A stretch of 64,000 bases of DNA from Sphingomonas sp. LM7 (GTDB taxonomy: Bacteria > Pseudomonadota > Alphaproteobacteria > Sphingomonadales > Sphingomonadaceae). Of this stretch, positions 826 through 37,334 are shown piece after piece; position 1 is the first letter of the stretch, and each line of letters opens with the position of its first letter. The position numbers and the translations under genes are program-made. Location: NCBI RefSeq assembly GCF_002002925.1, contig NZ_CP019511.1, positions 1,364,001 to 1,428,000 of the forward strand, given 5' to 3'. Under the pieces are notes generated by a model that did not search any database, was not told the DNA's origin, and worked only from the letters and a program-made list of their open reading frames with translations.

Positions 826-1163
826 TGGATTCGACGATCGGCACTGCGCTTTCCGGACTGCTGGGCACGATCATCGCGCTCGCGGTGGTGCTCGGGCTGG
901 CCTGGGTCAGCCTGCGCGCATTGCGCAAATGGCAGGACCGCGGCCTGGGCGGACGCGACGGGGTGGCCGAACGCCAGATCCGCTTCGTCCGCGCGCTCCC
1001 GGTCGGCCAGCGCGAGCGGCTGGTGCTGATCGAGGCCGAGGGTGAGCTCATGCTGGTCGGTGTCACGCCGGGATCGATCTCCCTGCTGCGCAACTGGGGG
1101 AACGGCGCCCCTCCGGTGCCGACCGAGGATGGCGTGCCGCCCGCATCGGAGACGATCCAATGA
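825..1163 (+). CDS. FliO-like type III export accessory protein
   Basis: This 112-residue protein has one N-terminal membrane segment (about residues 8-32) and a cytoplasmic tail with the FliO pattern: an ALPVGQRERLVLIEAEGE stretch followed by LVGVTPGSISLL. FliO assists assembly of the FliP pore in flagella and is usually absent from injectisomes. Its place between sctU and sctQ is therefore notable. The gene starts in the TGATG overlap with sctU and its stop overlaps the ATG of the next gene (ATGA). The family call is from the short motif and topology only. Confidence 0.7.
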   Translation: MDSTIGTALSGLLGTIIALAVVLGLAWVSLRALRKWQDRGLGGRDGVAERQIRFVRALPVGQRERLVLIEAEGELMLVGVTPGSISLLRNWGNGAPPVPTEDGVPPASETIQ

Positions 1164-2152
1164 ACGCGCGCTCCGAACAGCTCCGCGCCAATCTCCGCTC
1201 GATCGACCAGCCGCGCGCGAATCTGCAGACGACGCTGATCGGCGCACTCAACCGCCGGCTGATCGACGAACTGCAGACCAGCATTCGCCTCGCCACCGAG
1301 CGTGATCGCCGCGCCGCGGTGGCGTGGATCCAGTTCCGCAGCGGCGAGCATCTGGTGCAGATCGCGCCGTTGCTGGTCGATGGAGCTCTAGCCCGCGTCT
1401 CGGGCGCGCAGGGCAGCGTCGATGCCGCCGCCGCCGCGGCCACGCTCGGCCGGATCGAGCCCTTGGTCGGCGCCCTCGAGCTGGTGCTCGGCTGCGAGCT
1501 TCAGCCCGCCGGCCTGCACAAGAGCTATACCGGCGAACCGGTGTTGCTGCGGCTCGACGCGACCACCGGCAACGGCGTGATCCAGCATCGTCTGCTGCTC
1601 GCGGTCCCGCCCGATATCGCCGTCGAGCCGCTTGCCGAGATCGAGCTTGCCTCGACGGCGATCGGCGGATTGCGGCTGCGCTGGACTGCGCGGTTCGAAG
1701 GGCCGGCGGTACGCGACGCCAGCCTGGCCGCGATCGCACCGGGGGACCTGCTGCTGCTGGGAACCGGCGTACCGGTCGCGAAGTTGTCATTGCCCGGCCG
1801 CAACGATGCGCCGCGCGCACGAATCGCGTTCAACGATGGGGTGCTCGTTTTGCAGGATGATGCCGCAATGGACGTACCGCATGAGGCACTCGCCGCCAGC
1901 TCTGCGGGCGGCGAGACCGGCTGGGCCGATGTCCGACTGCCGACCACGATCGAGATCATCGGCTCCGGGATGACCGCGGCGGAACTCGCCACGCTGGGCA
2001 AGGGCAGCGTGCTTCCCCTGCCCGTCGCCGGCGGCACCCTGCTGGTGCGCGTGATCGCCGGGGAGCAATGCGTTGCCGAGGGCGAACTCGTCGCGGTCGG
2101 CGACGGCTTCGGCGTGCTGGTCACCGGAGTTACCGCCGACGGGGACGCTTGA
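1160..2152 (+). CDS. sctQ: SctQ-like C-ring protein with tandem SpoA domains
   Basis: The 330-residue product resembles SctQ/FliM-FliN cytoplasmic ring components of type III secretion systems. An N-terminal region of about 160 residues is followed by two SpoA-like segments: one near residues 170-235 (LRLRWTARFEG..., GDLLLLGTGVPVAKLSLPG) and one near 255-325 (DVRLPTTIEIIGSGMTAAEL, GSVLPLPV, AEGELVAVGDGFGVLVTGV). Two SpoA domains in one polypeptide are typical of injectisome SctQ rather than separate FliM and FliN. It lies in the export operon, overlapping both neighbours by a few bases. Confidence 0.8.
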   Translation: MNARSEQLRANLRSIDQPRANLQTTLIGALNRRLIDELQTSIRLATERDRRAAVAWIQFRSGEHLVQIAPLLVDGALARVSGAQGSVDAAAAAATLGRIEPLVGALELVLGCELQPAGLHKSYTGEPVLLRLDATTGNGVIQHRLLLAVPPDIAVEPLAEIELASTAIGGLRLRWTARFEGPAVRDASLAAIAPGDLLLLGTGVPVAKLSLPGRNDAPRARIAFNDGVLVLQDDAAMDVPHEALAASSAGGETGWADVRLPTTIEIIGSGMTAAELATLGKGSVLPLPVAGGTLLVRVIAGEQCVAEGELVAVGDGFGVLVTGVTADGDA

Positions 2153-2814
2153 TGGAACTCTCCAGCTTCACGCCCGGCTCGGCGCTCGTTGTCGTCGTCG
2201 CGCTGGCACTGGCGCCGTTCTTCGCGGTGATGGTCACGTCGTTCACCAAGATCGTCGTCACGCTGAGCCTGCTGCGCAATGCGCTCGGCCTCCAGCAGGT
2301 GCCGCCCAATATCGTCCTAAACGGCCTGGCGCTGATCCTGACGCTGTACGTCATGTACCCGGTCGGCCAACAGATCCAGGACCGGATCGCGGCGCAGCAG
2401 GTGGAGGGAAGCATGATGCAGTCCACTGCGTCTATCAGCACCGCGATCGATGTTGGCAAGGAGCCGCTGCGCGAGTTCCTCATCAAGCACAGCGATCCCA
2501 ATGAGCGCGCCTTCTTCCTGCGCACCGCCCAGCGCGTCGGCAATCCCGAACACGCCAAGGAAATGACCGATCGCGACCTGATCATCATCATCCCCGCCTT
2601 CGTTGTGAAGGAGCTGAGTTTGGCCTTCCAGATCGGCTTCCTGATCTTCCTGCCGTTCCTCGTCATCGATCTCGTCATCTCGAACATCTTGCTCGCGATG
2701 GGGATGATGATGCTGTCCCCCACCACGATATCGCTGCCGTTCAAGCTGCTGCTGTTCGTGCTGGTCGATGGCTGGGTGAAGCTCAGCCACGGGCTGGTGC
2801 TGTCCTATGCCTGA
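2152..2814 (+). CDS. sctR: Type III secretion export pore protein SctR
   Basis: This 220-residue integral membrane protein is the SctR/FliP core pore subunit. It has the family hallmarks MVTSFTKIVVTLSLLRNALG, QQVPPNIVLNGLALIL near the N-terminus and DLVISNILLAMGMMMLSP and PFKLLLFVLVDGWVKLSHGL at the C-terminus. The ending and the total length match YscR/SctR. FliP proteins are usually longer because of a cleaved signal peptide, and differ in the ending. The start codon overlaps the sctQ stop (TGATG). Confidence 0.93.
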   Translation: MELSSFTPGSALVVVVALALAPFFAVMVTSFTKIVVTLSLLRNALGLQQVPPNIVLNGLALILTLYVMYPVGQQIQDRIAAQQVEGSMMQSTASISTAIDVGKEPLREFLIKHSDPNERAFFLRTAQRVGNPEHAKEMTDRDLIIIIPAFVVKELSLAFQIGFLIFLPFLVIDLVISNILLAMGMMMLSPTTISLPFKLLLFVLVDGWVKLSHGLVLSYA

Positions 2815-2826
2815 GGAGAGAGCCCC

Positions 2827-3096
2827 ATGAACGGCGACTTCATCGGCCTCACTAACGATGCGCTGTGGCTCGTGCTGATCCTGTCGGCGCCGCCGATCAT
2901 CGTCGCGTCGGTGGCCGGGCTGCTCGTCGCGATCGTCCAGGCGGCGACGCAGATCCAGGAACAGACGCTGCAATATACCGCCAAGTTCTTCGCGATCGTG
3001 CTTACCCTGTTCGTCACCGCATCGCTGATCGGCGCATCGCTCTATCGCTACACCGACCGCATCTTCAGCGAATTCCCGGCGATGATCCGCCGGTGA
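2827..3096 (+). CDS. sctS: Type III secretion export protein SctS
   Basis: This 89-residue protein has two membrane helices and the conserved TQIQEQTL loop between them, followed by FFAIVLTLF. That composition is typical of the SctS/FliQ subunit that surrounds the export gate, with the loop closer to injectisome SctS. It follows sctR by 12 bases with an AGGAGAG ribosome binding site, and its stop overlaps the GTG start of sctT. Confidence 0.92.
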   Translation: MNGDFIGLTNDALWLVLILSAPPIIVASVAGLLVAIVQAATQIQEQTLQYTAKFFAIVLTLFVTASLIGASLYRYTDRIFSEFPAMIRR

Positions 3097-3869
3097 GCGA
3101 CTGGAGCGATCCGATGCTCCTGCTCGGCGTCGCGACTGCGCGGATCGCAGTCGCGTTCATGCTGATGCCGATCTTCTCGCCCGATCTGATCCCGGCGATG
3201 GTGCGCAATTCGATCCTCGTCTCGCTGGGCATCGTCTCGCTCACGCTCCAGCCCACGCTCGACGTATCGATGATGGGCTCGGGCCAATGGGGCGCGATGT
3301 TTGCCAAGGAAGTGTTCGTCGGGCTGGTCATCGGCTTTTTCTTCGGATCGGTGTTGTGGGCGCTCGAAGCCGCGGGGCAGATCATCGACACCAAGATCGG
3401 CGCGACGATGGCGCAGATCGTCGATCCGCTCTCGGGACACCAGACCTCGCTCAACGGCGCATTCCTCGGCCGTCTCGCCGGGATCGTCTTCATCTTCTCG
3501 GGCGGCCTGTCGCTGCTCGTCCATGTGCTGATGGAGAGCTATGCGCTGTGGCCGGTCGCCGCGCCGATGCCGACGCTCGACGCGCGCGGGCTGGCGCTGT
3601 TCGAAGCCGAATTCGGGCGGCTGATGGTGCTCGCCACGCTGTTCGCCGCGCCGGTGCTGACCGTGCTGTTCCTGATCGACGTTGGCCTGGGCCTGATCAA
3701 TCGCTTCGCCCAGCAGCTCAACGTCTTCACCCTGTCGATGTCGATCAAGGCATTCGCCGCCACCGCGATCATCCTGCTGCTCGTCGGCTCGTTCGTCGAG
3801 GCGATCACCCGCGACATCCTCAGCCGGCCGGACTTGATCCTCAACATCCTGCGGGGGCTGATTCATTGA
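3093..3869 (+). CDS. sctT: Type III secretion export protein SctT
   Basis: This is a polytopic membrane protein of about 258 residues in the SctT/FliR family. The motif IIDTKIGATMAQIVDPLSG followed by HQTSLNGAFLGRLAG corresponds to the conserved export-gate loop and reads like injectisome SctT. The start chosen is GTG at 3093, which overlaps the sctS stop (GTGA); an in-frame ATG at 3114 is an alternative. Its own stop overlaps the TTG start of the next gene. Confidence 0.9.
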   Translation: MSDWSDPMLLLGVATARIAVAFMLMPIFSPDLIPAMVRNSILVSLGIVSLTLQPTLDVSMMGSGQWGAMFAKEVFVGLVIGFFFGSVLWALEAAGQIIDTKIGATMAQIVDPLSGHQTSLNGAFLGRLAGIVFIFSGGLSLLVHVLMESYALWPVAAPMPTLDARGLALFEAEFGRLMVLATLFAAPVLTVLFLIDVGLGLINRFAQQLNVFTLSMSIKAFAATAIILLLVGSFVEAITRDILSRPDLILNILRGLIH

Positions 3870-7962: not shown

Positions 7963-9300
7963 ATGACGGGCGTCTCTTCGGTTCAACAGACCCAAAGCAA
8001 TTCGAGCAGCGGCAGCGGCGACAGCGGCTATGTCGTCAAGTCGGGCGACACCGTGAGCGCGATCGCGCGCGACAAGGGCGTTTCGCTCTCGGCGCTGGTC
8101 AAGGCCAACCCGCAGATCCTCCATCCCGATCTGATCCGCCCGGGCCAGCATCTCAACGTTCCGTCGGGTTCGGGCGCTGGCGAGGCGCCGCGCGAATATA
8201 CGATCAAGTCCGGCGACACGCTCTCTTCCATTGCCGGGCGCTTCGGCACGAGCTGGCAGGCGCTGGCGCAAGCCAACAACCTCTCCAACCCCAATCTGAT
8301 CTTCCCCAACCAGACGCTGACCATTCCCAATGGAACCGGCGCTACCGGGGGAAGCGGCGCCGTCGAGGGCGGATCGCCGGTCGGAGGCACCGGCAGCGGA
8401 TCGGGCGACGTCGCGGCGATCGCCGAGAAATATCTCGGCCAGAACGCCTCGTCGCTCAAGGTCAACAGGAACGACAATCTGCCGATGAACGCCGGCGTTC
8501 CGTCGAACGTGTGCTGCGCGAACTTCGTCTCGGCGGTGCTGACCGAGGCGGGCCGGCTCCCGGCCGGGCTCCACACCGATTCGGTAGCCCAGCTCAAGAC
8601 CAATCTACTCGCACAGGGCTGGACCGCGGTTCCCGCCTCCGAGGCCAAGCGCGGCGACGTCGTCATCATTCAGGGCGGCGGCGTCTCGCATACCGAGATC
8701 GTCTCGGGACCTGGCAAGATGATCGGATCGAACAACGTCAATGCAGACGGCACCCAGCGCATCTCGACCAACAACCTCAGCTGGGCGGTGGCCAAGGGCG
8801 CGGTGATCCTGCGCGCGCCGGGCGGCACCGGCGGCGGCGAGACCCAGGGCACCCAGGCGACCGGCGGAGTGGTCCCTACCGGCCAGGGCAGCCGCCAGGA
8901 TCGCATCGACCAGGCGATCAGCTACTTCGAGGGCCAGGGCTGGACCCGCGCCCAGGCGATCGGTCTGGTCGCCAACCTCGATGCCGAGAGCAAGATGGAT
9001 CCGGGCATCCGCCAGATCGGCGGCGGTCCCGGCTATGGACTCGCGCAATGGGAGGGTCCGCGCCAGCGCGACTTCGCTGCCTGGGCCGGCCACGACATCC
9101 GCGGCTCCTCGTTCGCCGAGCAGCTTCGCTTCATCCAGCACGAGCTGACGCACAGCGAGTCGGGCGCGGGCCGGGCGCTCCGCGGCGCGACCGATGCGCG
9201 GTCGGCCGCGGAGATCGTCACGCGGCTCTACGAACGGCCCGCCGACACTGCCGGCGAAGCCTCTCGCCGCGGCGATCTCGCGGCGCAGATGGCACGCTGA
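7963..9300 (+). CDS. LysM-CHAP-lysozyme peptidoglycan hydrolase without Sec signal
   Basis: The 445-residue protein carries two LysM domains (about residues 24-66 and 74-118, both with SGDT...IA), a CHAP/NlpC-like amidase domain (about 145-287, with [10 protein letters not shown] supplying the cysteine and SHTEIVSG the histidine) and a C-terminal phage-tail-lysozyme-like domain (about 305-445, [28 protein letters not shown]). It should bind and cut peptidoglycan. There is no Sec or Tat signal; instead the N-terminus is Ser/Gly/Gln rich, as in type III substrates. With the dyad upstream, the likely role is opening the cell wall for the secretion apparatus, or acting as a secreted effector; that is inference. 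Confidence 0.85.
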
Positions 9301-25493: not shown

Positions 25494-26699
25494 TCATGCG
25501 CGCCGCGCGGCCCACCGGCCCCGCAGCCACATATACACTCCGCCGACGAAGATGATCGCCGACAACAAGACAAAGATGCCGAGGTCGTACATCGTGTAGG
25601 TCGATGCGGCCGGATCGCGATACGCCTCGTAGCTTTTGGCCGCATACCGGGCCAGGGTCGGCAGGAAGACCAGCAGCAGCAACGAGAGCGCGGCGATCCG
25701 TCCCACGATCCACAGCACCGAAAACACGCGGAGGACGCGGACGCTGCGATAGGCGGGCGCTTCCGCGCTAGTTCCCAGCCGGCCGCCACTGACCCGATAC
25801 AGGCAATCGCGCAGATAGACGCGCGCGTCGGCATCGAGGTTGGGATAGCTCAGGTAATTGCTGAGCACGTAATAGACGTCGGTCTTGAGGAAGAGATTGA
25901 ACTGCCAGACGATCGTCACGACGACTTGCAGCACCAGCGCCTGCAGGAGGAATATGGCGAAGCCGGTCTCGCCCTCGCGCCGCAGGGCGGCGATGGCGAG
26001 CGTCACCAGCGCGATCACCAGGAGATCGACCATCATCCCGGCCATCAGCGGCAGATAGCGTTGCCGCTTGGGCAGCGCCCAGATACCCGACAGATCGGCC
26101 TCGGCGACGATGTTCCACAAGCGATTGCCGATCCCCAGCCGCGAGCTCACCCCGTGCCGTGCAGCGGCCAGCATGTGGCCAAGCTCGTGCAGCGCGACTG
26201 CCAGCGACGACAGGACCAGCAGGAGCACCAGCGTCAGCGCAAGGTCGCGTTCGATGAAAAAGGCATGGCGATCGATCCGCAGGGCAGGATCGAACAAGGC
26301 GAGATACCCCGCATAGCCGACCACGGCGAGATAGCCGACGAGCACCGGCGCGGAGAACACGGCGCGGGCGATCCCGGGGTCTGCGCGGAACAGGATCCTC
26401 TTGTCCTCGTCCCGCCCGGCAAGCCGTTCCTGGTGCAGATGCGCCTCGTTGACGGGATAGACGAAGCCGATTTCGCGCAGCATCGCGACGAAGTCATCAA
26501 CGTCCACCATCTCGCCGCCCTCCGCGGCGAGCATGGCCTTGATCTCGCCGGGCGTCTTTCCCGCCTGCAGCAGCGTCACCACGGTACGCCCAGCGGCCGG
26601 CACTTGATAGAATTCATCCATTTCCGCGCTGCCGATGAGGAAGTCTTCTCCCTCCGGCTGGATCGACAGCGGAACCACGAAATACTGCGCGTCGTCCAT
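25494..26699 (-). CDS. PqqD-like/M50 membrane zinc metallopeptidase (YydH-like)
   Basis: The 401-residue protein has two parts. Residues 1-85 look like a PqqD-type peptide-recognition domain (EMDEFYQVPAAGRTVVTLLQ, GEIKAMLAAEGGEMVDVDD). The rest is a polytopic M50 peptidase with zinc motif HELGH at residues 171-175 and the late motif KTDVYYVLSNYLSYPNL, where the third ligand is probably Asp 274. This is typical of putative peptide zinc metalloproteases such as YydH that mature ribosomal peptides. I chose ATG 26699 (GGAAA upstream); GTG 26747, overlapping the previous stop, would add 16 residues. Confidence 0.85.
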   Translation of the reverse strand: MDDAQYFVVPLSIQPEGEDFLIGSAEMDEFYQVPAAGRTVVTLLQAGKTPGEIKAMLAAEGGEMVDVDDFVAMLREIGFVYPVNEAHLHQERLAGRDEDKRILFRADPGIARAVFSAPVLVGYLAVVGYAGYLALFDPALRIDRHAFFIERDLALTLVLLLVLSSLAVALHELGHMLAAARHGVSSRLGIGNRLWNIVAEADLSGIWALPKRQRYLPLMAGMMVDLLVIALVTLAIAALRREGETGFAIFLLQALVLQVVVTIVWQFNLFLKTDVYYVLSNYLSYPNLDADARVYLRDCLYRVSGGRLGTSAEAPAYRSVRVLRVFSVLWIVGRIAALSLLLLVFLPTLARYAAKSYEAYRDPAASTYTMYDLGIFVLLSAIIFVGGVYMWLRGRWAARRA

Positions 26700-26743: not shown

Positions 26744-27262
26744 TCACTTCGCCACCGGCCGGATGCCGGTGTACTGCGCCGACACCAGCTTCCAGCTGCC
26801 GCCCTCGCGCCGCGCCACGAAGCTCGCACGCAGCGCCATCACGCGAGGCGACTGGCCCGGCACCTGCACCGTATAGGCGAGCCGGGCGATCACGATCGCC
26901 GTGTCGCCGAACATCCGCACCACCGGCTCTACGATCTCGACCGCAGGCGCATTCGACTTCTTGTCGGGTGCGTAGAAGCCGAGCATCTTTTCGCGGCTGT
27001 CCACTTCGCCGACGGGTGAAATCTCGAGATAGTCAGGCGCAGTCAGTGCCGTCAGGCGAGGCACGTCAAAGCTCTGTTGGGCGCGTACGAAATCGCCGAC
27101 CAGGCGGACGAGCGCCTCTTGCGCAGCGGGATCTTGCCGGGCGTGCGTGGCTGGCGGCCCGATCGGCGCAGCCTCCGCCGCAGCGACAGCCGCCGCTACC
27201 GGCATTGCCGCTCCCGCGACGAGCAGCGTCGCGGCAATCGATGCTAGTTTCCCATACCCCAT
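26744..27262 (-). CDS. Exported NTF2/SnoaL-like protein
   Basis: The 172-residue protein has a Sec signal peptide (LASIAATLLVAGAAMPVAAA) and a mature NTF2-like domain: VRLVGDFVRAQQSFDVPRL, TAPDYLEISPVGEV, VVRMFGDTAIVIARL, ASFVARREGGSWKLVSAQYT. Such folds bind small ligands or act as isomerases; the substrate is unknown. The start is fixed by GGGGGAG upstream. It follows the peptide gene and its hairpin, and its stop overlaps the possible GTG start of the peptidase gene. Confidence 0.8.
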   Translation of the reverse strand: MGYGKLASIAATLLVAGAAMPVAAAVAAAEAAPIGPPATHARQDPAAQEALVRLVGDFVRAQQSFDVPRLTALTAPDYLEISPVGEVDSREKMLGFYAPDKKSNAPAVEIVEPVVRMFGDTAIVIARLAYTVQVPGQSPRVMALRASFVARREGGSWKLVSAQYTGIRPVAK

Positions 27263-27341
27263 CCGCTTTTCTCCCCCGCGCGCCGGGCCGATCGAGCGCG
27301 CCTTTGCCGCTGCACCGTCACAACCGACGATGGAAAAGGAC

Positions 27342-27363
27342 GGACCGGCCGCGGGGCCGGTCC
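27342..27363 (-). terminator. Hairpin between peptide gene and NTF2-like gene
   Basis: On the minus strand GGACCGGCC pairs with GGCCGGTCC around a 4-base loop and is followed by GTCCTTTTCC. It lies 16 bases after the peptide stop. It may end or dampen transcription so that the peptide is made in excess over the operon genes. Confidence 0.65.
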
Positions 27364-27378
27364 ATCCCTCTCGACTGA

Positions 27379-27477
27379 TTAGAACCAGAACGGGAAAGGC
27401 CAGCATTCCCAAATCGGGTAGAGTGCCACCGAAGTGGTCTTGAGCTTCTGGGCCTTAAGGACAGAGATCTTCTTCAT
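27379..27477 (-). CDS. Short Trp/Phe/Pro-rich peptide, candidate RiPP precursor
   Basis: A 32-residue open frame too short for most gene finders. The N-terminal 19 residues form a basic, Lys-rich leader (starting MKKISVLKAQK). The last 13 residues are YPIWECWPFPFWF: seven aromatics, three prolines and a single Cys. A GAGGGAG ribosome binding site stands nine bases before the ATG, far better than chance. The hairpin at 27342 follows the stop and a PqqD-like/M50 peptidase is encoded downstream on the same strand. I read it as the precursor of a ribosomal peptide. The alternative, a leader peptide for transcription attenuation, is weaker because the following genes are not for aromatic amino acid synthesis. 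Confidence 0.75.
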   Translation of the reverse strand: MKKISVLKAQKLKTTSVALYPIWECWPFPFWF

Positions 27478-27504
27478 CGAAAAATACTCCCTCATGCAAC
27501 TGCC

Positions 27505-27832: not shown

Positions 27833-27847
27833 TGCAACACAGTTGCA
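27833..27847. promoter_or_regulatory. Dyad TGCAAC-ACA-GTTGCA upstream of TonB receptor 1
   Basis: A perfect inverted repeat with a 3-base spacer, about 98 bases before the ATG at 27945. The arms match those of the dyad next to the peptide gene. Confidence 0.4.
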
Positions 27848-27944
27848 ACCAAAAACCCGCCTGGTCGCGCGCAACCGTAACGAACCTGCCGCGAGCGCTT
27901 CACATCCGGTGTCCAGCAGCCCCGCTCCACCTCGGGGAATAAAA

Positions 27945-30257
27945 ATGACAAATCGTATCTCGTTCGCGGCTTTGCTCGCCACCGCTTCGCTCATCGCCAT
28001 GCCTGCGTTCGCCCAGAGCGCGATCGAAGACGGCGCCGCCGCCCGCGACGACAATGACATCGTCGTCACTGCGCAGAAGATCGAGCAGCGCGCCGTCGAT
28101 GTGCCGATCACCATCTCGGCGCTCACCGGCGAGCGCATGGCCGAACTCGGCGTCAGCGATCTCGACGAGCTGTCGAACTACATCCCCGGGCTGAATATCC
28201 AGGAGCAGAGCGCCAACAATCCCGGCATCGTGATCCGCGGCATCACCTCGGACTCGGGCTCGGCGCAGCAGGGACCGCGCGTCACCCTCTATTACAACGG
28301 CGTCGACATCGCGCGCTCGCGCGGCTCGTACCAGGCAGTCTACGACCTCGAGCGCGTCGAAGTGATCAAGGGCCCGCAGGCGACGCTTTTCGGCACCGCA
28401 TCTGCAGTCGGTGCGATCAGCATGACCTCGGCGCGCCCGCGCGAAGGCTATTCGGCGGCGCTGACCGGCGGCTACGGCAACTACAACACCACGCTATTGT
28501 CGGGCTATGTCAACGCCGGCACCGACGTGATCGCCGGTCGCCTCGCCTTCGAATGGAAGACGCGCGATGGATTCGTCGAGAATCTGTCGCCCAACCAGCA
28601 CAAGGATCTCTACGCGCAGGACCAGCTCGGCATCCGCGCCTCGGTTCGCTACACGCCGATCGACGCGCTGACCGTCGACCTGATCGGCACCTATGACCGC
28701 CAGCGCAATGGCGGCACGCCGTTCATCTCGCGCGCGCTGCCGACTCAGGCAGGCCCGGGCAACCCGTTCGGCAAGGCTAATCTGGGCGGCTCGCCCTATT
28801 CGCAGCAAGTGCTCGGCAAGGACCAGCTCGGGCTCTACCGCGACGTTTACGACATCAACCTGACTGCGTCGTGGGAGTTCGCACCCGACTTCACCTTCAC
28901 TACGGTCAACGGCTATCGCAACTTCGACAGCCTCGAGATTTTCGACGCCGACGGTTCGGCGGCCTGGTATCTCGAATTCGGCGAATATTCGAAGGGCTGG
29001 CAGGCGAGCCACGAGGGCCGCTTCGCCTATGCCAGCGATACGCTGCGCGCTTCCGCGGGCTGGAACTTCTTCGTCGAAGACAATTTCCAGAACGTGCCCT
29101 TCTCGTCCGAAGAAGGCACTTTCCTCCAGTGCGCCGCCCGCGTGATCCCGGGCCTGCCGTGCATCGACGCCAATGGCGTGGTCCGCGCGGCGCAGGCGAC
29201 CTCGATTCTTACCGGCGGCGCAGCGACTGCGATCCCCTATTCTTCGGAATTCGAGAATCAGGGCCGCAACGCCAGCTATTCGGTGTTCGCCGACGCGACC
29301 TGGATCCCTACCCCTGCGCTCGAGCTGACCGCCGGCGTCCGGCTGCTGCTCGAGGATCGCAAGTCGGGCTATTTCGCCCGCGTGCCGCGCCCGGTGCTCA
29401 ACCCGACCGCGACATCGCTGATCCCCGGCCAGATCGACACCGGCGGCCAGACCTTCGAAGCAGAAGAAAATTACTCGGCAGTGCTGCCGCGCTTCAACAT
29501 CCTCTATCGCCTGAGCGATGCGGTGAACGTATTCGCCACCGTCTCGAAGGGCCGCCGCTCGCCGGTGGTCCAGCTCAACGCCCGCTTGGCCAGCGGCGCC
29601 CCGGTCGCCAACCTCCAGCTCGTGCCCGAGGAAGTCGTGTGGAACTACGAAGCCGGCCTGAAGGGCAGCGTCGGCCCAGTATCGGGTTCGCTCGGCGTTT
29701 ATTACCAGAAATATGACGGCTTCCAGGTGAGCGTGGTCCAGCCCAACGGCACCTCGCTCGCCCAGAGCGCCGGTGCGGCAAGCAACCTCGGCGTCGAGGC
29801 AGAGCTGAGCGTGCGCCCGACCAAGTGGCTCAACGTCTTCGGCAATATCGGCTATATCGACGGCGGCATCGACAAGAACAACAGCTTCGCCCCGGCCTTT
29901 TCGGGTGCGCGTTTCCGCCTCCAGCCTGAATGGCAGGCGGCCGCCGGCTTCACCTTCGATGCGCCGCTGGGCGGCGGCACCCGCGTCTTCGCAACGCCGA
30001 GCGTCACCTATCGCAGCCGCATCTTCTTCGAAGTGCCCAACAACATGGCGATCTCGCAGGGGCCGGTGACGCTGGTCAACGCGCGCGCCGGCGTGAGCTT
30101 CATGGAGGAGCAGTTCGAAGTGGCCGCCTATGTCCGCAACGCCACCAACGAGCGCTATCTGCTCGACGCAGGCAATACCGGCGGCGGCTTCGGCATCCCG
30201 ACCTTCATCCCCGCCGAACCGCGCTTCTACGGCGTGCAGTTCACCGCACGTTTCTGA
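27945..30257 (+). CDS. TonB-dependent outer-membrane receptor 1
   Basis: The 770-residue protein has a Sec signal (ISFAALLATASLIAMPAFAQS), a TonB box (DDNDIVVTAQK), a plug domain (LDELSNYIPGLNIQEQSANN, VIRGITSD, LERVEVIKGPQATLFG) and a beta-barrel ending in FTARF, a classic terminal Phe. It should take up an unknown ligand across the outer membrane using proton-motive force. ATG 27945 was chosen because it opens the signal peptide and follows GGGGAA. It is probably co-transcribed with the phosphatase 13 bases downstream. Confidence 0.93.
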   Translation: MTNRISFAALLATASLIAMPAFAQSAIEDGAAARDDNDIVVTAQKIEQRAVDVPITISALTGERMAELGVSDLDELSNYIPGLNIQEQSANNPGIVIRGITSDSGSAQQGPRVTLYYNGVDIARSRGSYQAVYDLERVEVIKGPQATLFGTASAVGAISMTSARPREGYSAALTGGYGNYNTTLLSGYVNAGTDVIAGRLAFEWKTRDGFVENLSPNQHKDLYAQDQLGIRASVRYTPIDALTVDLIGTYDRQRNGGTPFISRALPTQAGPGNPFGKANLGGSPYSQQVLGKDQLGLYRDVYDINLTASWEFAPDFTFTTVNGYRNFDSLEIFDADGSAAWYLEFGEYSKGWQASHEGRFAYASDTLRASAGWNFFVEDNFQNVPFSSEEGTFLQCAARVIPGLPCIDANGVVRAAQATSILTGGAATAIPYSSEFENQGRNASYSVFADATWIPTPALELTAGVRLLLEDRKSGYFARVPRPVLNPTATSLIPGQIDTGGQTFEAEENYSAVLPRFNILYRLSDAVNVFATVSKGRRSPVVQLNARLASGAPVANLQLVPEEVVWNYEAGLKGSVGPVSGSLGVYYQKYDGFQVSVVQPNGTSLAQSAGAASNLGVEAELSVRPTKWLNVFGNIGYIDGGIDKNNSFAPAFSGARFRLQPEWQAAAGFTFDAPLGGGTRVFATPSVTYRSRIFFEVPNNMAISQGPVTLVNARAGVSFMEEQFEVAAYVRNATNERYLLDAGNTGGGFGIPTFIPAEPRFYGVQFTARF

Positions 30258-30270
30258 AGGGTATCGGAAG

Positions 30271-31899
30271 ATGACGATCAATCGACGCAGCGCGCTCGCG
30301 CTGCTCGGCAGCGGCGCAGCACTCGGGGTTCCGGGTGCTGCGCAGGCAGCAGCGGTGGACGGCCGCTTCGCGCACGGCGTGGCCAGCGGCGATCCCGCCG
30401 CGGACGGCGCCGTGATCTGGACGCGCGTCACCGCGGATGCCGGGTCCGGCGACGTGCCGGTCACCTGGCACATCGCGACGGCTCAGGACGGCAAGCCGGT
30501 CGCCACCGGCAAGGCGACGGCGCGTGCCGCCGCCGATCACACGGTAAAGGTGGAAGTCACGCGGCTGAAACCCGGGCGCGATTATTGGTACTGGTTCGTC
30601 ACCGCCGGCCAGCGTTCGCCCAGCGGCCGCTTCCGCACATTGCCGGTCGGATCGGTCGATACGGTCGTCTTCGCCGTCGCATCGTGCCAGCTGTATCCGG
30701 GCGGGCTGTTCAACGCCTATGCCGACATGGCAGCACTGCCACGTCTCGACGCAGTGCTCCACCTTGGTGATTACATCTACGAATATGGCGCCGAGGGATA
30801 TGGCGCCGATGTCGGCCGCGCGCTGGGGCGCCTGCCCGATCCGCCGCACGAGATCGTCACGCTCGACGATTATCGCCGCCGTCACGCCCAGGTAAAGGCC
30901 GATGCCGATATGCAGGCCGCGCACGCCCGCGCCGCGTTCATCTGCGTGTGGGACGATCACGAGGTCGCCAACGACGGCTGGATCGGCGGCGCCGAGAACC
31001 ACGATCCCGCCAAGGAAGGCGACTGGAAAACGCGCAAGGCCGCGGCGATGCAGGCCTATTTCGAATGGATGCCGATCCGCGATCCCAAGCGCGGCCGGCC
31101 TTGGGAAGCGATCAACCGCAGCTTCGAATTCGGCAACCTGGCGACGCTCGCCATGGTCGAGACGCGGCTGCTCGCGCGTTCGCAGCAGGCCGAAGTGAAA
31201 GGCGGCACGCCGGGACCCGGCGAATATGCCGCGGTGATGGCCGAGCGCGACCGTCCCGAGCGCGAGATGCTCGGCGCCGAGCAGCAGCGCTGGCTCGAAG
31301 GCGTGCTCGCCGCCTCGACGCGCGCGAACAAGCCATGGCAGCTGCTCGGCAACCAGGTGGTGATGGCACGCGTCGCCGGCCCGGACCTGTCCGGCTTCGC
31401 GGCGCGCATCGACAAGCTTCCGCCGGTCTATCGCGACCGGCTTCAGGCCGCTGTCGCCGGCTACAAGGCCGGCCTGCCGTTCAACTTCGACGCTTGGGAC
31501 GGCTATCCCCCGGCGCGCGAGAGGCTCTACGCCGCCTTCCGTCGGGCGGGCTCCAAGCCGATCGTGCTGGCGGGCGACAGCCATGCCGGCTGGGCGAACG
31601 ACCTGTACGACGATGCCGGTACGCTGGTGGCTTCGGAGTTCGGCGCCACGGCGATCACCAGCCCGTCCTATGGGTCGCTACTGCCCGGCCTCGGCACCGC
31701 GCTAGCCGAGGCGAACCGCGAAGTCGTTTTCTGCGATCAGGACAGCAAGGGCTATACGCTGGTGACGCTGACACCAGCAGCGGCAACGGCGGAGTTCGTC
31801 ACCGTATCGACGATCCTGAAAAAGCCCTTCACCCGCAAGGTCGCCGCCACCTATCGCGCCGCGCCGGGCGAAAAGCGCGTTCCGCTCGAGCGCGTCTGA
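30271..31899 (+). CDS. PhoD-like alkaline phosphatase, Tat-exported
   Basis: The 542-residue protein opens with a Tat-type signal (NRRSALALLGSGAALG). It is a PhoD-family metallophosphatase with an N-terminal Fn3-like domain (about 35-135, FAHGVASGDPAADGAVIWTR) and metal-binding motifs HLGDYIYEYG, CVWDDHEVANDGW and LAGDSHAGWAND. It hydrolyses phosphodiesters or monoesters in the periplasm. The position after a TonB receptor suggests the pair scavenges an organic phosphate. A hairpin follows the stop. Confidence 0.9.
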   Translation: MTINRRSALALLGSGAALGVPGAAQAAAVDGRFAHGVASGDPAADGAVIWTRVTADAGSGDVPVTWHIATAQDGKPVATGKATARAAADHTVKVEVTRLKPGRDYWYWFVTAGQRSPSGRFRTLPVGSVDTVVFAVASCQLYPGGLFNAYADMAALPRLDAVLHLGDYIYEYGAEGYGADVGRALGRLPDPPHEIVTLDDYRRRHAQVKADADMQAAHARAAFICVWDDHEVANDGWIGGAENHDPAKEGDWKTRKAAAMQAYFEWMPIRDPKRGRPWEAINRSFEFGNLATLAMVETRLLARSQQAEVKGGTPGPGEYAAVMAERDRPEREMLGAEQQRWLEGVLAASTRANKPWQLLGNQVVMARVAGPDLSGFAARIDKLPPVYRDRLQAAVAGYKAGLPFNFDAWDGYPPARERLYAAFRRAGSKPIVLAGDSHAGWANDLYDDAGTLVASEFGATAITSPSYGSLLPGLGTALAEANREVVFCDQDSKGYTLVTLTPAAATAEFVTVSTILKKPFTRKVAATYRAAPGEKRVPLERV

Positions 31900-31912
31900 T
31901 ACTCGATCCCAA

Positions 31913-31948
31913 GCATCAGCGCGGCGGCAATCCCGACCGCGCTGATGC
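31913..31948 (+). terminator. Hairpin after the PhoD-like gene
   Basis: GCATCAGCGCGG pairs with CCGCGCTGATGC as a perfect 12-base stem around a 12-base loop. It lies 14 bases after the stop codon. No T-run follows, so termination may be incomplete. Confidence 0.6.
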
Positions 31949-31973
31949 CGCTTCGGCGCAAGGAGAACGGCGC

Positions 31974-31989
31974 TGTTGCAGACGCAACA
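31974..31989. promoter_or_regulatory. Dyad TGTTGC-N4-GCAACA upstream of TonB receptor 2
   Basis: A perfect inverted repeat whose arms are the same GTTGC/GCAAC elements as the two dyads near 27.5 and 27.8 kb, in the opposite arrangement. A degenerate GCAAT-CT-GTTGG in the usual arrangement follows at 31999-32010. Confidence 0.35.
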
Positions 31990-32156
31990 GGGCGTCACGC
32001 AATCTGTTGGGTTAACACCAGCCGCCCGGGTCCCACTTTTCCCGGAAGAAAGCACGATTTCATACATTTCATATACTTACGCCTTGTGGCACGTCGCTTG
32101 CTCAACCCTCCCCCGACCACGGCGCGCTCTCGCGCCAACAATCGGGGGATTTTACC

Positions 32157-34514
32157 TTGCTCAGCCTGTCCAGTCGCGCTGCCCTGTCTCTCCTGTCAGC
32201 GTCGAGTGCGCTGGCGCTCACGCTGGCCTGCGCGACCCCCGCGGGCGCAGCGCCTCGCGAAGAGGGCGTCACGGCGGACACCGCGGAGACCAGCGATCCG
32301 GAACCCGAGAACGAAACTGCGCGCGGGACCAACGACATCGTCGTCACCGCGCAGCGCCGCGAGCAGCGCCTTCAGGAAGTGCCGACTACGGTAACCGCGC
32401 TCAGCTCCGAGCTGTTCAGCGAAGGCGGCATCGGCCGCTCGGCGAACGAAGTGCTCAACCTCGTGCCCAACGCATCGGCAGGCACCCAGCAGCACGGCCG
32501 CCCACGCTGGTGGATCCGCGGAGTCGGCGCCGGCCAGCAGCAACTCGATCTCGCCAATCCGGTCGGTTTCTATCTCGACGACGTCTACATCAGCAACGCC
32601 AGCGCCACCGGCCTGCCGCTGTTCGATATCGAGCGCGTCGAAGTGCTCCGCGGGCCGCAGGGCACTTTATGGGGCAAGAACACCACCGGCGGCGCGATCA
32701 ACGTGATCTCGAAGCGCCCGTCGCTTACCGACGGCGCCGACCAGAATTACGTGAAGCTCGAATATGGCAGCTTCGATAACAAGATCGCCGAGGCCGGCGT
32801 GGGCGCTGCGATCGTGCCGGGCGTGCTGGCCACCCGTATCTCGGCGCGCATCGATGACCGCGAGGGCCGCTTCACCAATTTGTTCACCGGCGAGAAGTCC
32901 AACGCGATCCGTGACAGCGTCGTGCGAGGGCAGCTGTCGCTTGCCCCTTCGCCGGGGTTCGAGGCGCTATTGAGCCTCCATTACCGCGACTATCAGACCG
33001 ACGGCACTTATTGGACCACCGCGAGCTATGCACCGAGCGGGCTGTTCCGCAACGGCTACACGCCCTCGACCGACAAGGATGAAATCAGCACCAATGCCGG
33101 CGAATTCACCCGCGCCTCGCAATTCGGCGGATCGCTGCATCTCGACTGGGACGTCGGCGCGCTCTCGCTGACCGCCATCACCGGCTATGAGCGGTTCAAG
33201 ACGCGCGGCGCCGGCGACGGCGACTACACCCCGCTCGAAATCTCACGCAGCTACACCCAGGCGCGCAGCCAGCAATGGACTCAGGAGCTTCGACTTGCCT
33301 CCCCGCAGGCGGACCGGCTCAACTGGATCCTCGGCGCCTATTATTTCAACGAGAAGATCGTCTCGAACGCCTATTCGGCGACGCTGCCGGCGGGGTCGGT
33401 GCTCGCGCAGCCGGGCAGCACTGCGCCCGCGGCGTACAGCCTGGCCCGCTACGACCACAAGGCGAAGAGCGGCGCGGCGTTCGGCAGCGCAACCTTCGAC
33501 TTCACCGACGCGGCGAAGCTGACGGTCGGCGCGCGCTGGACCCGCGAGACCAAGACGCTCGATTTCGATCGCAGCGCCTCGCCGGGCGCCGCCGCGACTG
33601 CGTGGAGCAACTACGCCCATTGGTGGGACAGCTATACCGGCAGCTTTGGCGGGATCGGGACCTTCTCCGGAGATCTGCGGAGAACCTGGGACGCCTTCAC
33701 CTACGACGTGACGCCGTCCTGGACCGTCGCTCCCGACAATTTGGTCTACTTCAAATACTCGCACGGCGTTAAGTCCGGCGGTTTCAACACTGCCGCGACA
33801 CTGCCCGTCGCGCTGGTTGCGGTGGAGCCGGAGGAACTCGATGCGTTCGAGCTAGGCTATAAGTCACAATGGTTCGATCGGCGCCTCACCTTCAACGCCA
33901 CCTTGTTCCACTATGACTACCACAATGTCCAAATCAACGTAGTCGGCCCCAACCCCGGCGCCGTCGGAGGTGCGACCGTTTCCTATCTCCAGAATGCGGA
34001 AAAGGCGCACGTCAACGGCGCCGAACTGGAGCTGGAAGCGACGCCGGTCGACGGGCTGCGGCTGACCGGCGCGGTCGGCATCCTCGACACCAAATATGAC
34101 GAGCTGCAAGTGGTGAACGGCGGCGCCGATCTGTCGGGCGCGCGCTTCGTCCGCGCGCCCAAGCTGACACTCAACGGCAGCGCGACTTACACCATCCCGC
34201 TCGCCAGCAGCGGCAGCATCGATCTCACCGCCGACGCACGTTACACCTCGCGCCAATTCTATTACATCACGCCGCAGGACACGGTGAACCGCTATCTGCT
34301 GACCCAGAAGGGCTATACGATCGCCAATGCGCGGATCAGCTACACCGCGCCGAACGAACGCTTCACGCTCTCGGCCTTCGTCAACAATCTGCTCGATACC
34401 GAGTATCTCAACCATTCGCTGCCCGCGGCCAACGCTGCCCAGGCGATCACCGGCGACACCGTCGCCTGGGCCGATCCGCGGACGTACGGCGTGTCGTTCA
34501 TCACGCGGTTCTAA
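32157..34514 (+). CDS. TonB-dependent outer-membrane receptor 2
   Basis: The 785-residue receptor has a Sec signal (ALSLLSASSALALTLACATPAGAA), a TonB box (GTNDIVVTAQRREQRLQEVP), a plug (VEVLRGPQGTLWGKNTTGGAINV) and a barrel closing with VSFITRF. TTG at 32157 is the best start: GGGGGA lies nine bases upstream and it opens the signal. It is closest to the sphingomonad receptors for complex organics, but the ligand cannot be told. A strong hairpin ends the transcript. Confidence 0.92.
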   Translation: MLSLSSRAALSLLSASSALALTLACATPAGAAPREEGVTADTAETSDPEPENETARGTNDIVVTAQRREQRLQEVPTTVTALSSELFSEGGIGRSANEVLNLVPNASAGTQQHGRPRWWIRGVGAGQQQLDLANPVGFYLDDVYISNASATGLPLFDIERVEVLRGPQGTLWGKNTTGGAINVISKRPSLTDGADQNYVKLEYGSFDNKIAEAGVGAAIVPGVLATRISARIDDREGRFTNLFTGEKSNAIRDSVVRGQLSLAPSPGFEALLSLHYRDYQTDGTYWTTASYAPSGLFRNGYTPSTDKDEISTNAGEFTRASQFGGSLHLDWDVGALSLTAITGYERFKTRGAGDGDYTPLEISRSYTQARSQQWTQELRLASPQADRLNWILGAYYFNEKIVSNAYSATLPAGSVLAQPGSTAPAAYSLARYDHKAKSGAAFGSATFDFTDAAKLTVGARWTRETKTLDFDRSASPGAAATAWSNYAHWWDSYTGSFGGIGTFSGDLRRTWDAFTYDVTPSWTVAPDNLVYFKYSHGVKSGGFNTAATLPVALVAVEPEELDAFELGYKSQWFDRRLTFNATLFHYDYHNVQINVVGPNPGAVGGATVSYLQNAEKAHVNGAELELEATPVDGLRLTGAVGILDTKYDELQVVNGGADLSGARFVRAPKLTLNGSATYTIPLASSGSIDLTADARYTSRQFYYITPQDTVNRYLLTQKGYTIANARISYTAPNERFTLSAFVNNLLDTEYLNHSLPAANAAQAITGDTVAWADPRTYGVSFITRF

Positions 34515-34605: not shown

Positions 34606-35763
34606 TTACTCGGCGGCTTGCAGCAATGCCCCCGCGTTGCGCCCGAGCAGCGGCAGGACTTCCTCGCCGACGCGATACGCCTCTTCGAGATGCGGCGTGC
34701 CGGCGAGGATGAAAGCGTCGGTGCCGCGTGCGATCAGTTCGTCGAGCCGCGCGGCGCATTGCTCGTAGCTGCCAACGATGCCGAGCGCCGGCCCGCCGCG
34801 CAGCAGGCTGAACCCACCCCACAGGTTCGGTGCGACGATCAACTCGTCATAGCGGGTTGCGTCGCTGGGCCTGAGCGCCTGCTGGCGCGCGGCACCGACG
34901 GAGTCGGTCGGTCCACCCCGCGCCCGTTGCCGGCGCTCGGGGCTCAGGCTCTCGAAGCCGGCTCGGACTTCGGCCCAGGCTTCCTCCTCGGTCGGGCGCG
35001 CGACCAGATCGACGCGCACCGCGCATTTCTGCTCGCCGCCCAGCGCCGCGGTGCGCGCCTTCACTCGCGCGAACTTGTCGGCGAGCTGGTCGAACGGCTC
35101 GAGCCACGAGAGATAATAGTCGGCGTGCTTGGCCGCGGATTGCAACGCCGCGTCGGACGAACCCGAGAACCAGATCTCCGGGATCTCTTCGCGCGCCAGC
35201 AAGGGCGACAGCCCGCCATCGCGCACCTGATAGAAGCGGCCGTCATAGGAGAAACCCTCTCCGCCCCACACTCCCTTGAACACGTCGAGGAACTCGGTGG
35301 TGCGGCCATAGCGGTCGTCATGGCTGAAGCTGTCGCCCCACCAGAGCTGCGAGGGTCCGCCGCCCCCGGTGATGATGTTGAACACCGTGCGCCCGCCGGT
35401 CGCGCGCTGCAGGCTCGCCGACATGCGCGCGGCGTGCACCGGGTTGAGGAACCCCGGCTGGAACGCGATCATGAAGCGAAACGCCTTGGTCTCGCGCGCA
35501 AGCAGCGGCGAGATCACCCACGGATCGTCGGTATTGGGAAAGGACGGGATCAACCCACCGATAAAGCCGACGCTTTCCGCTGCCTTGGCGATCGCGCCGA
35601 GATGATCGACATAGCGAAAGCCGTCATCTTCGCCGTTACGATCGAGGCCGGGGGCGACGTTGCGCGGCCCGATCGGCGACCAGTCGCCGCGATCATAAGC
35701 CGTGTCGCGAAGGCTGCCGTGACAGCCGTGGCTCGGCAGGCGCCAGTAGAAATCGATGGTCAT
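34606..35763 (-). CDS. ssuD: FMNH2-dependent alkanesulfonate monooxygenase-like protein
   Basis: The 385-residue protein belongs to the bacterial luciferase-like flavin monooxygenases and reads like SsuD, which splits C-S bonds of sulfonates with reduced FMN and oxygen. Segments seen are FYWRLPSHGCHGSLRDT, ARMSASLQRATGGRTVFNII, TGGGGPSQLWWGDSFSHDDRYGR split over the barrel, and SSDAALQSAAKHADYYLSW. It is the last gene of the seven-gene minus-strand operon. The real substrate may be an organosulfur compound other than alkanesulfonate. Confidence 0.85.
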   Translation of the reverse strand: MTIDFYWRLPSHGCHGSLRDTAYDRGDWSPIGPRNVAPGLDRNGEDDGFRYVDHLGAIAKAAESVGFIGGLIPSFPNTDDPWVISPLLARETKAFRFMIAFQPGFLNPVHAARMSASLQRATGGRTVFNIITGGGGPSQLWWGDSFSHDDRYGRTTEFLDVFKGVWGGEGFSYDGRFYQVRDGGLSPLLAREEIPEIWFSGSSDAALQSAAKHADYYLSWLEPFDQLADKFARVKARTAALGGEQKCAVRVDLVARPTEEEAWAEVRAGFESLSPERRQRARGGPTDSVGAARQQALRPSDATRYDELIVAPNLWGGFSLLRGGPALGIVGSYEQCAARLDELIARGTDAFILAGTPHLEEAYRVGEEVLPLLGRNAGALLQAAE

Positions 35764-35772
35764 GCGGGCACC

Positions 35773-36729
35773 TCAGGCAGCGGCGGTCACGCGCTCGGTA
35801 AGCGCGCGGAAGCGGGGAAGCACATGCTGGCCGATGCGATACGCCTCTTCGAGCGAGGACGGCGCAGCGAGGACGAAATGGCGGAAGCCGGCACGCGCGA
35901 GATCGGCAAGCCGCTCGGCGACGTCGGCATAGGTCCCGACGATTGCCGCGTCGGGGAAGCCGGCACGCTCCGCGTCGCGTCGCGCATCCACGGCATCGTC
36001 GCGCGCCAGCACCGGCTGGATAAGACCGAACTCGATCGCTCGGCCCGCTCGCAACGCCAGCGCGTCGAGCGTCTCAACGAACACGCGAAGCTTGGACAAG
36101 GGCGCCGCAGCGAACAGATGCACATCCGCCACGCGTGCCGAAAGGGCGAGCGCTTCCTCGCTCTCGCCCTGAAGGAACACCTTGGGGAAAGCGACGCGGT
36201 TGAGCGGCTCCTGGAAGCCACCGCCCTGCACTTCGAAATGTTTGCCGGCAAAGTCGAACGGCCGTTCGGCATGGACACCGCGCGCGACGGTCAAGAACTC
36301 GTCGACTCGCGCATGCAATTCGTCCTCCGGCACATGATCGCCTTCGCGGGCGCGCGCCGCACTTTCGCCGGCATTGGTGATTGCCCAGCCAAGCCGTTCT
36401 TGCGTCTGGCGCTGAAAGCTCACTGCCTGTTTGGCGGCATATACCGCTGAACCCGCCGATGCCGGGAATTCCGGAATCAGCTTCAGCCGTGACACTTCGC
36501 GCGCGATTGCCGCGGCAACGATTCCGCTGTCGTCGGACTGCGGCCGGTGCGGCAGGAACAGGCCGTCGAACGCCGTCTGCGCCGCCGCCTGCGCCACCTG
36601 CGCGTAATAGTCATAGCGGTTGAGCGTGGCAGGACGAACGTCGCGGAACAGGCCGGATTGCCGCGCCCCCGGCTCGGATCGCCCGGCATCCTCCGCAACA
36701 TCGAGCTGCCAATAGGTCTGGATCGTCAT
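35773..36729 (-). CDS. Luciferase-like flavin monooxygenase
   Basis: The 318-residue protein is a second flavin-dependent monooxygenase of the luciferase fold (YYAQVAQAAAQTAFDGLFLPHR, VFLQGESEEALALSARVADVHLF, IVGTYADVAERLADLARAGFRHFVLAAP). It is shorter than SsuD and lacks part of the insertion region. Its ATG overlaps the nitroreductase stop (ATGA) and its stop is nine bases from the SsuD-like gene, so both act in the same pathway, probably on successive organosulfur intermediates. Confidence 0.8.
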   Translation of the reverse strand: MTIQTYWQLDVAEDAGRSEPGARQSGLFRDVRPATLNRYDYYAQVAQAAAQTAFDGLFLPHRPQSDDSGIVAAAIAREVSRLKLIPEFPASAGSAVYAAKQAVSFQRQTQERLGWAITNAGESAARAREGDHVPEDELHARVDEFLTVARGVHAERPFDFAGKHFEVQGGGFQEPLNRVAFPKVFLQGESEEALALSARVADVHLFAAAPLSKLRVFVETLDALALRAGRAIEFGLIQPVLARDDAVDARRDAERAGFPDAAIVGTYADVAERLADLARAGFRHFVLAAPSSLEEAYRIGQHVLPRFRALTERVTAAA

Positions 36730-37334
36730 GCCGCGTCCCTTTCGCTGGCGAAGACAGGCTCCCCGAGCCGCCCGGCGAAGACGCTCTCGGCGATCGGCCG
36801 GCGCTTGCTCGGGCTCTCGCCGGCGTGGAAATCGGCAGGGAGCGTATCGAGCCCGCCCTGCCGGCCGAGCGCGACGATCGTCTCGATCGCGAAGTCTTCG
36901 GGTACTGCCAGCAGCGTCCGCGCTGCATCGCGATCGAACCCGCCAATGCCGTGCGTATGCCAGCCGAGCAGCAGCGCCTGGTGCGCGAAATTGGTCCATG
37001 CCGCGCCGGCATCGAAGCTGTGCGAGACATTGTCGACCAGCGCGCCGCGGCGCTCGACCTTCAGCTCCGACAGCACGACGATCAGCGCCGACGCCCGCGA
37101 CGCCCATAGTGCGTTGCGCGGCGCAAGCAACGACACGAAGTCCTGCCAATGCGCGTCGCCATGCCGCGCGACCAGGAAGCGCCAGGGCTGCGCGTTCGAA
37201 GCTGAAGGCGCCCAGCGCGCCGCTTCGAATGCGCTTGCCAACACTGCATCCGGCACGGACTCGCCGGTAAAGCTGCGCGGCGACCAGCGATCGACGAACA
37301 GGGGCTCGACGGGGTGATCGGGGGTGCGGGCCAT
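36726..37334 (-). CDS. Nitroreductase-family flavoprotein
   Basis: The 202-residue protein has the FMN-binding start RWSPRSFTGESVP, AARWAPSASNAQPWRF and a C-terminal GGFDRDAARTLL...VALGRQGG, typical of the nitroreductase family. Its place between the transporter genes and two reduced-FMN-dependent monooxygenases suggests it may supply reduced flavin or reduce a pathway intermediate. Both ends overlap neighbours by ATGA. Confidence 0.8.
   Translation of the reverse strand: MARTPDHPVEPLFVDRWSPRSFTGESVPDAVLASAFEAARWAPSASNAQPWRFLVARHGDAHWQDFVSLLAPRNALWASRASALIVVLSELKVERRGALVDNVSHSFDAGAAWTNFAHQALLLGWHTHGIGGFDRDAARTLLAVPEDFAIETIVALGRQGGLDTLPADFHAGESPSKRRPIAESVFAGRLGEPVFASERDAA

Follow-up and report, generated by a model that had tools for sequence, protein, structure and literature searches.

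Ordinary annotation misses short genes of the sort described here, a 32-residue reading frame in a stretch of 64,000 nucleotides from Sphingomonas sp. LM7 (contig NZ_CP019511.1, positions 1,364,001 to 1,428,000), which we call the window and whose first letter is position 1 in all window coordinates below. A preliminary description, made from the sequence alone, had taken this frame for the overlooked precursor of a ribosomally synthesized and post-translationally modified peptide (RiPP), standing first in an operon with a PqqD-like/M50 peptidase. The frame, the signals around it and the genes that run with it are listed below, where RRE stands for RiPP recognition element and TPR for tetratricopeptide repeat.

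27379..27477, minus strand: precursor-like peptide gene, 32 aa, with the leader MKKISVLKAQKLKTT, the spacer SVAL and the aromatic segment YPIWECWPFPFWF
27487..27492, minus strand: Shine-Dalgarno sequence AGGGAG, 9 nt ahead of the ATG
27333..27372, minus strand: 18-bp hairpin directly 3' of the peptide stop (minimum free energy of 70 nt -45.3, z -6.2)
26744..27262, minus strand: DUF4440/SnoaL (NTF2-like) protein, 172 aa (PF14534, E 1e-13), with a hydrophobic N-terminal segment by hydropathy
25494..26699, minus strand: RRE(PqqD-like)-M50 intramembrane metalloprotease, 401 aa, with HELGH at residues 171-175 and several hydrophobic segments by hydropathy
26433..26699, minus strand: RRE (PqqD-like) domain of this protease, ~residues 1-89, delimited by a profile of N-termini and PF05402
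23693..25480, minus strand: cytosolic TPR protein, 595 aa, with an N-terminal alpha/beta domain (~20-165) followed by a TPR superhelix

The frame reads MKKISVLKAQKLKTTSVALYPIWECWPFPFWF from an ATG at 27477, with its stop codon included in the interval 27477-27379, and the plus-strand frame at the same positions is unrelated to the peptide. The preliminary description was right to see a gene here and left its strand, the minus strand, unstated; the features that it had pointed out are all present, namely a good ribosome binding site (AGGGAG), a basic leader (five Lys and no acidic residue within the first 19), and a C-terminus more than half aromatic (seven of the last 13 residues) with a single Cys. 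No family of NCBIfam or Pfam matches the peptide at E up to 1.

With the 48-aa TTG-extended form of the frame as query, eight database proteins were matched, all with E below 1e-8 and all alike in form. A single scan of genome contigs, based on an alignment of 27 M50 protease homologues, yielded 12 loci, nearly all in named Alpha-, Beta-, and Gammaproteobacteria; the hosts are Sphingomonas, Lysobacter, Duganella, Pseudoduganella, Acidisphaera, Aestuariibacter, an alphaproteobacterial metagenome-assembled genome, and a record labelled Bacillus. A related peptide lies upstream of the protease in all 12, ten of them detected through the core motif, one with a core devoid of Trp (L016), and one divergent (MKTISITKMQQIKTTRVPITVIAHYCLVALA, L022 from Acidisphaera). 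An additional locus, L057, whose protease came from another family sample, encodes MKKINTAKVQKLKTTAVAMYPIWMCWPF 117 nt upstream of the protease, even though this peptide was absent from all profiles used. Two loci (L020 and L025) carry two tandem copies each, and the total, with the window included and L022 as well, amounts to 16 copies at 14 loci. A purine-rich, Shine-Dalgarno-like stretch, as judged by eye, precedes the other 14 copies and that of L057. The proposal had been made dependent on conservation of the peptide beside the peptidase in related genomes, and it survived this test, as the peptide stands upstream of an RRE-M50 protease in 14 of 14 loci.

In 12 of the 13 whole genomes searched with a peptide profile, this site alone gave a strong hit, with E below 1e-16, whereas in the Acidisphaera genome the correct site ranks first with E 0.074. 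Since this profile was built from these same peptides, L022 excepted, its E-values are too favourable, although the sites are no less unique for it. The system is rare in the genus: the peptide occurs in three of 201 same-genus genomes, exactly the three with a close protease, and two more of the 201 contain distant M50-like matches (28 and 31% identity).

An alignment of 20 peptides, which does not include the divergent L022 copy, gives the consensus MKKISxxKxQKLKTTxVAxYPIWxCWPF, followed by a variable tail of 0-9 residues. Invariant in all 20 are M1, K2, K3, Q10, L12, K13, T14, T15, A18, Y20, P21, I22, C25, and P27, and the codons of these residues vary, with the exception of M1 and C25. Among 91 pairs, L022 again excluded, 44 had no usable synonymous distance (dS), and in each of the 47 computable ones the nonsynonymous distance (dN) was the smaller (medians 0.147 for dN and 1.179 for dS). 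Purifying selection thus acts on the peptide at the protein level. Taken together with the 16 copies at 14 protease loci and the single strong site per genome, this makes the 32-residue frame a real gene, far beyond chance.

These data also bear on whether the frame might be a transcription-attenuation leader peptide of the trpL kind, in which Trp or Phe would be sensed through the hairpin. The short frame is rich in Trp codons, and a fold with z of -3 or below (70 nt after the stop, against 100 mononucleotide shuffles) lies behind ten of the 16 copies; weak folds include those of L016, L018, both copies of L025 and the first of L020, and L015 has a long stem nonetheless at z -2.3. However, there is no Trp in L016 (...YPICRCFPDFPGCPVIDR) or in L022 (...ITVIAHYCLVALA) and hence no series of control codons kept throughout the family, invariant residues away from the supposed control codons are specified by differing codons, two genomes carry tandem copies, and no amino-acid pathway gene belongs to the shared unit. 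Attenuation is already disfavoured on these grounds, and we regard it as very improbable. The hairpin would rather act as a partial terminator or a stabiliser of the mRNA, and the use to be expected of it is a more abundant peptide message, which would let peptide synthesis outrun that of the enzymes. When this stretch of the window was scanned with a terminator consensus, neither the hairpin nor any other element scored as a terminator.

The peptide gene comes first in a co-directional run on the minus strand, followed by the genes for the DUF4440 protein (27262-26744), the RRE-M50 protease (26699-25494), and the TPR protein (25480-23693). The operon with the peptidase proposed earlier is consistent with this order, with the reservation that the DUF4440 gene intervenes and that the strong 18-bp hairpin follows the peptide stop. 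The unit formed by the peptide, the RRE(PqqD-like)-M50 protease, and the TPR protein is found in 14 of 14 loci, the TPR gene always directly downstream of the protease. A homologue of the DUF4440 protein, which is probably exported or anchored, accompanies the unit in ten of the 14, either between peptide and protease (the window, L015, L019, L021, L024, and L026) or behind the TPR gene (L017, L020, L025, and L057).

The catalytic residues of the M50 family, H187, E188, H191, and D290 in a 417-aa numbering, are kept without exception in all 27 proteases, and Pfam M50 matches each of these at E up to 1. A profile of 12 of the N-termini finds TfuB1 as its best match among solved structures (E 0.0016), and TbiB1 at E 1.1, ranked below unrelated chains; we take both to be lasso-peptide RREs. 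PF05402 (PqqD) was found in seven of the 12 N-termini and in ten of the 27 full homologues (E up to 1 in both cases). The family profile and the retained catalytic residues speak for the PqqD-like/M50 assignment of the preliminary description, with the scores of the window's own protein below the cut-offs.

Contrary to the protease, the TPR protein is without a hydrophobic segment by hydropathy. Its predicted model is of high confidence (pLDDT 93.2, pTM 0.90), and its superhelix aligns with PlcR-PapR7, among many TPR structures. The N-terminal domain has a predicted alpha/beta fold whose nearest listed chains are barstar, and Pfam searches with six such domains gave no hit, even with E allowed to reach 10.

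According to these observations, the frame is probably the precursor of a small leader-directed peptide of RiPP type, processed by an RRE-M50 protease pathway; both the linkage of the peptide to the RRE-M50 gene and the RRE-like profile match to TfuB1 speak for the RiPP-precursor reading put forward earlier. In the mechanism that we propose, the PqqD-like RRE fused to the site-2-type M50 protease would bind the conserved leader MKKISxxKxQKLKTT, and the protease would cut inside the membrane or close to it, probably within TTxVAxYPI, between TTxVAx and YPI. This cut would free the aromatic, Cys-containing C-terminal segment, YPIWxCWPF plus the variable tail. The cytosolic TPR protein may bind the precursor or the product, as an adaptor, a receptor, or a self-protection partner, and the probably exported or anchored DUF4440 protein would be an accessory, possibly a carrier or an immunity protein.

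Two features of a RiPP in the broad sense are found here, a ribosomal precursor made of a conserved leader and a separate C-terminal segment, and an RRE-like domain in the cluster, recognised by profile, weak in the window's own protein, and predicted to bind the leader. Judged from sequence, the label would hold only for a leader-directed, processed peptide, with any further modification hypothetical, because no modifying enzyme recurs in most loci; such an enzyme is possible elsewhere in the genome.

Several observations weigh against this reading. The conservation of the core is far above what is expected for the core of an antimicrobial RiPP. The window protease matches Pfam M50 at E 3.1e-5 and PqqD at E 0.096, both under the curated cut-offs. 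In Sphingomonas oligophenolica S5.1 (L026, 9785-11213, plus strand) the protease lies in two open reading frames beside open peptide and TPR frames, which may reflect a broken copy, a misassembly, or a sequencing error. DUF4440 was not found in four of the 14 loci (L016, L018, L022, and L023), the stretch behind the TPR gene of L018 being partly masked. A comparison of flanks of up to 10 kb in 13 loci, with only ~0.5 kb upstream of the protease match in L022 and with Pfam applied to part of the flanking genes, returned as widely shared families the TPR protein, the M50 protease, DUF4440, and further frames of the same genes; outside the unit, five of the 13 was the most that had a family in common, and no modifying enzyme or exporter recurred in most of them. 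ABC-type genes were near three loci (L018, L021, and L022), and exporters are clearest in L022 (HlyD, MacB/FtsX, and C39-ABC) and in L021 (ABC and FtsX). The one family in five loci is similar to glutathione S-transferases (GST), and its distance and strand vary.

Among the known systems, daptides are the closest in architecture. They were discovered through an RRE fused to an intramembrane site-2 protease (PMC10036551), and both systems have short precursor genes next to a site-2-type M50 protease that carries an RRE at its N-terminus. The likeness extends to the protein models, since at E<=0.001 the NCBIfam model daptide_HExxH matches 16 of the 27 proteases, the window's own at E 8.9e-10, while YydH/LiaK matches two and the lasso PqqD model one. 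However, the window protease reaches 38.2 bits against a daptide_HExxH cut-off of 300. The C-terminal Thr that is invariant in daptides occurs in none of the 20 aligned peptides, nor in L022 or L057, and the leader of this family differs from the ELExMEAP of daptides. No oxidative decarboxylase, aminotransferase, or methyltransferase recurs here, the unit being composed of the peptide, DUF4440, M50, and TPR. Aminotransferase-fold genes, presumably of the biotin pathway, do lie downstream in the window and a PrmC-type methyltransferase gene near L018, but neither recurs across the clusters. Moreover, daptides come from Actinomycetota and Bacillota, whereas the present family is found in Proteobacteria.

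Epipeptides need a radical-SAM epimerase. In 13 loci no radical-SAM-type family recurs beside the unit, a result obtained with no search by radical-SAM-specific models; here, in addition, the RRE is fused to the protease and the TPR protein is always present. What the two systems share is an M50 intramembrane protease, YydH/EpeP for YydF/EpeX, which matures a short precursor; such proteases act in both the epipeptide and the pearlin pathways (PMC10885120). Fusilassin maturation requires an RRE (PMC10885120), and the N-terminal domain described here resembles the lasso RREs TfuB1 and TbiB1; in contrast to lasso systems, the protease is of the M50 family and no further protease or cyclase family recurs in the 13 loci. 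By the tests made, this appears to be a peptide pathway of the RRE-plus-membrane-protease kind that is neither a daptide nor an epipeptide system.

A short peptide, a membrane zinc protease, and a TPR partner are also the components of SHP/Eep/Rgg and PapR/PlcR (RRNPP) signaling. The frame may encode a pheromone, a Gram-negative counterpart of SHP/Eep/Rgg-type signaling in which the M50 protease, like Eep with streptococcal SHP, would release a short hydrophobic signal to be exported, re-imported, and bound by the TPR protein. The highly conserved core would fit a conserved target such as a receptor, and for this reason we keep this alternative as a main one, even though we consider it unlikely. 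RRNPP receptors carry an N-terminal HTH (or Rap helix-bundle) output domain, whereas no DNA-binding domain was recognised in the TPR protein; moreover, the hosts are Gram-negative, and the protease bears an RRE. In a more specific form, which we hold to be rather doubtful, the RRE-guided protease would free a Trp/Phe/Pro-rich, nonapeptide-like YPIWxCWPF to be read inside the cell by the TPR protein, whose N-terminal domain is arranged in a barstar-like way. Such a Gram-negative signaling class, if true, would join RiPP leader recognition to Rgg-type signaling.

The strong conservation of the core, with Y20 and C25 invariant, and the PqqD-like domain could also suggest that the peptide is the scaffold of a small molecule or cofactor derived from one or few core residues, following the logic of PQQ (pyrroloquinoline quinone), mycofactocin, and pearlins; in the case of pearlins, it is M50 proteases that cleave the amino-acid product from its scaffold (PMC10885120). 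Against it stand the lack of any modifying gene family in more than five of the 13 loci and the divergent L022 peptide, where Tyr and Cys are, by eye, at other positions; we find this origin improbable.

It is likewise unlikely that the product is a secreted, toxin-like peptide, a microcin or bacteriocin, against which the DUF4440 protein, the TPR protein, or both would confer self-protection. The preferred reading remains the leader-directed peptide cut by the RRE-M50 protease.

In the literature covered, which takes in few subscription papers, we found no description of the peptide or of the gene set, nor of five peptide fragments, in agreement with the earlier statement that no known RiPP class has this core. 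Conserved across distantly related Proteobacteria of the alpha, beta, and gamma classes, the aromatic peptide and the protease and helper beside it point to a so far undescribed family of bacterial peptides that undergo processing. Its precursor bears a clear signature and comes with a protease and a TPR partner of its own. The family opens the way to the role of an RRE-guided site-2 protease with no obvious modifying enzyme, to a possible signal or antimicrobial role of short aromatic peptides in its hosts, and to what the TPR protein reads. Two hosts, Lysobacter enzymogenes ATCC 29487 and Sphingomonas trueperi DSM 7225, are probably open to testing, as they have collection numbers.

The GST-like genes in the flanks are the following, in coordinates of each locus.

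L015, 6157-6843, plus strand: GST-like gene
L017, 5504-6187, minus strand: GST-like gene
L020, 3508-4170 and 16155-17282, minus strand: GST-like genes
L023, 8603-9484, minus strand: GST-like gene
L025, 3439-4230 and 16145-16960, minus strand: GST-like genes

They may be merely common genes, or perhaps tied to the invariant Cys of the peptide. LysR regulators recur in three loci, and most other families found in three reflect the synteny of three Oxalobacteraceae.

Some observations concern single loci. In the Acidisphaera locus L022 (3655-11662, plus strand), the peptide, M50, and TPR genes are followed by HlyD, an ABC (ATP-binding cassette) ATPase, MacB/FtsX, a second HlyD, and a C39-peptidase ABC exporter. 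L024 comes from a record with the title Bacillus sp. 2B10, yet its TPR protein clusters with two Sphingomonas proteins (100/100), which makes mislabelling or contamination of the record probable. Just behind the unit of L024 there is a gene for a phage-type integrase. In L057 (reverse strand, ~8,500-9,230; G1490), a protein like the transposases associated with repetitive extragenic palindromes, recognised by eye, adjoins the unit, which hints at mobility.

Distant protease relatives occur in other contexts. L004, from the same genus, is another candidate RiPP locus: a 45-aa peptide ending in ...ELAGRCNGRCDAPTVPIKPA (822-959, plus strand) precedes a distant M50-like protein (1051-2349, plus strand), which is 28% identical to the window protease and unmatched in Pfam at E<=1e-4, and an arginase-fold protein (2356-3534, plus strand; PF00491, E 3e-15). 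Peptide arginases make ornithine, and the gene set of L004 recalls them. On Streptomyces plasmids (L055, 4808-7185, and L056, 4937-7305, plus strand), genes for a ThiF-like adenylyltransferase and a BTAD regulator immediately precede that of a relative with ~31-32% identity, an M50 context with no known product.

Outside the conserved unit, the window encodes, divergently from the peptide, two TonB receptors with a PhoD-like phosphatase between them (27843-34514, plus strand), followed by two luciferase-like monooxygenases (34606-37149, minus strand); L023, too, has a TonB receptor, placed behind its unit.
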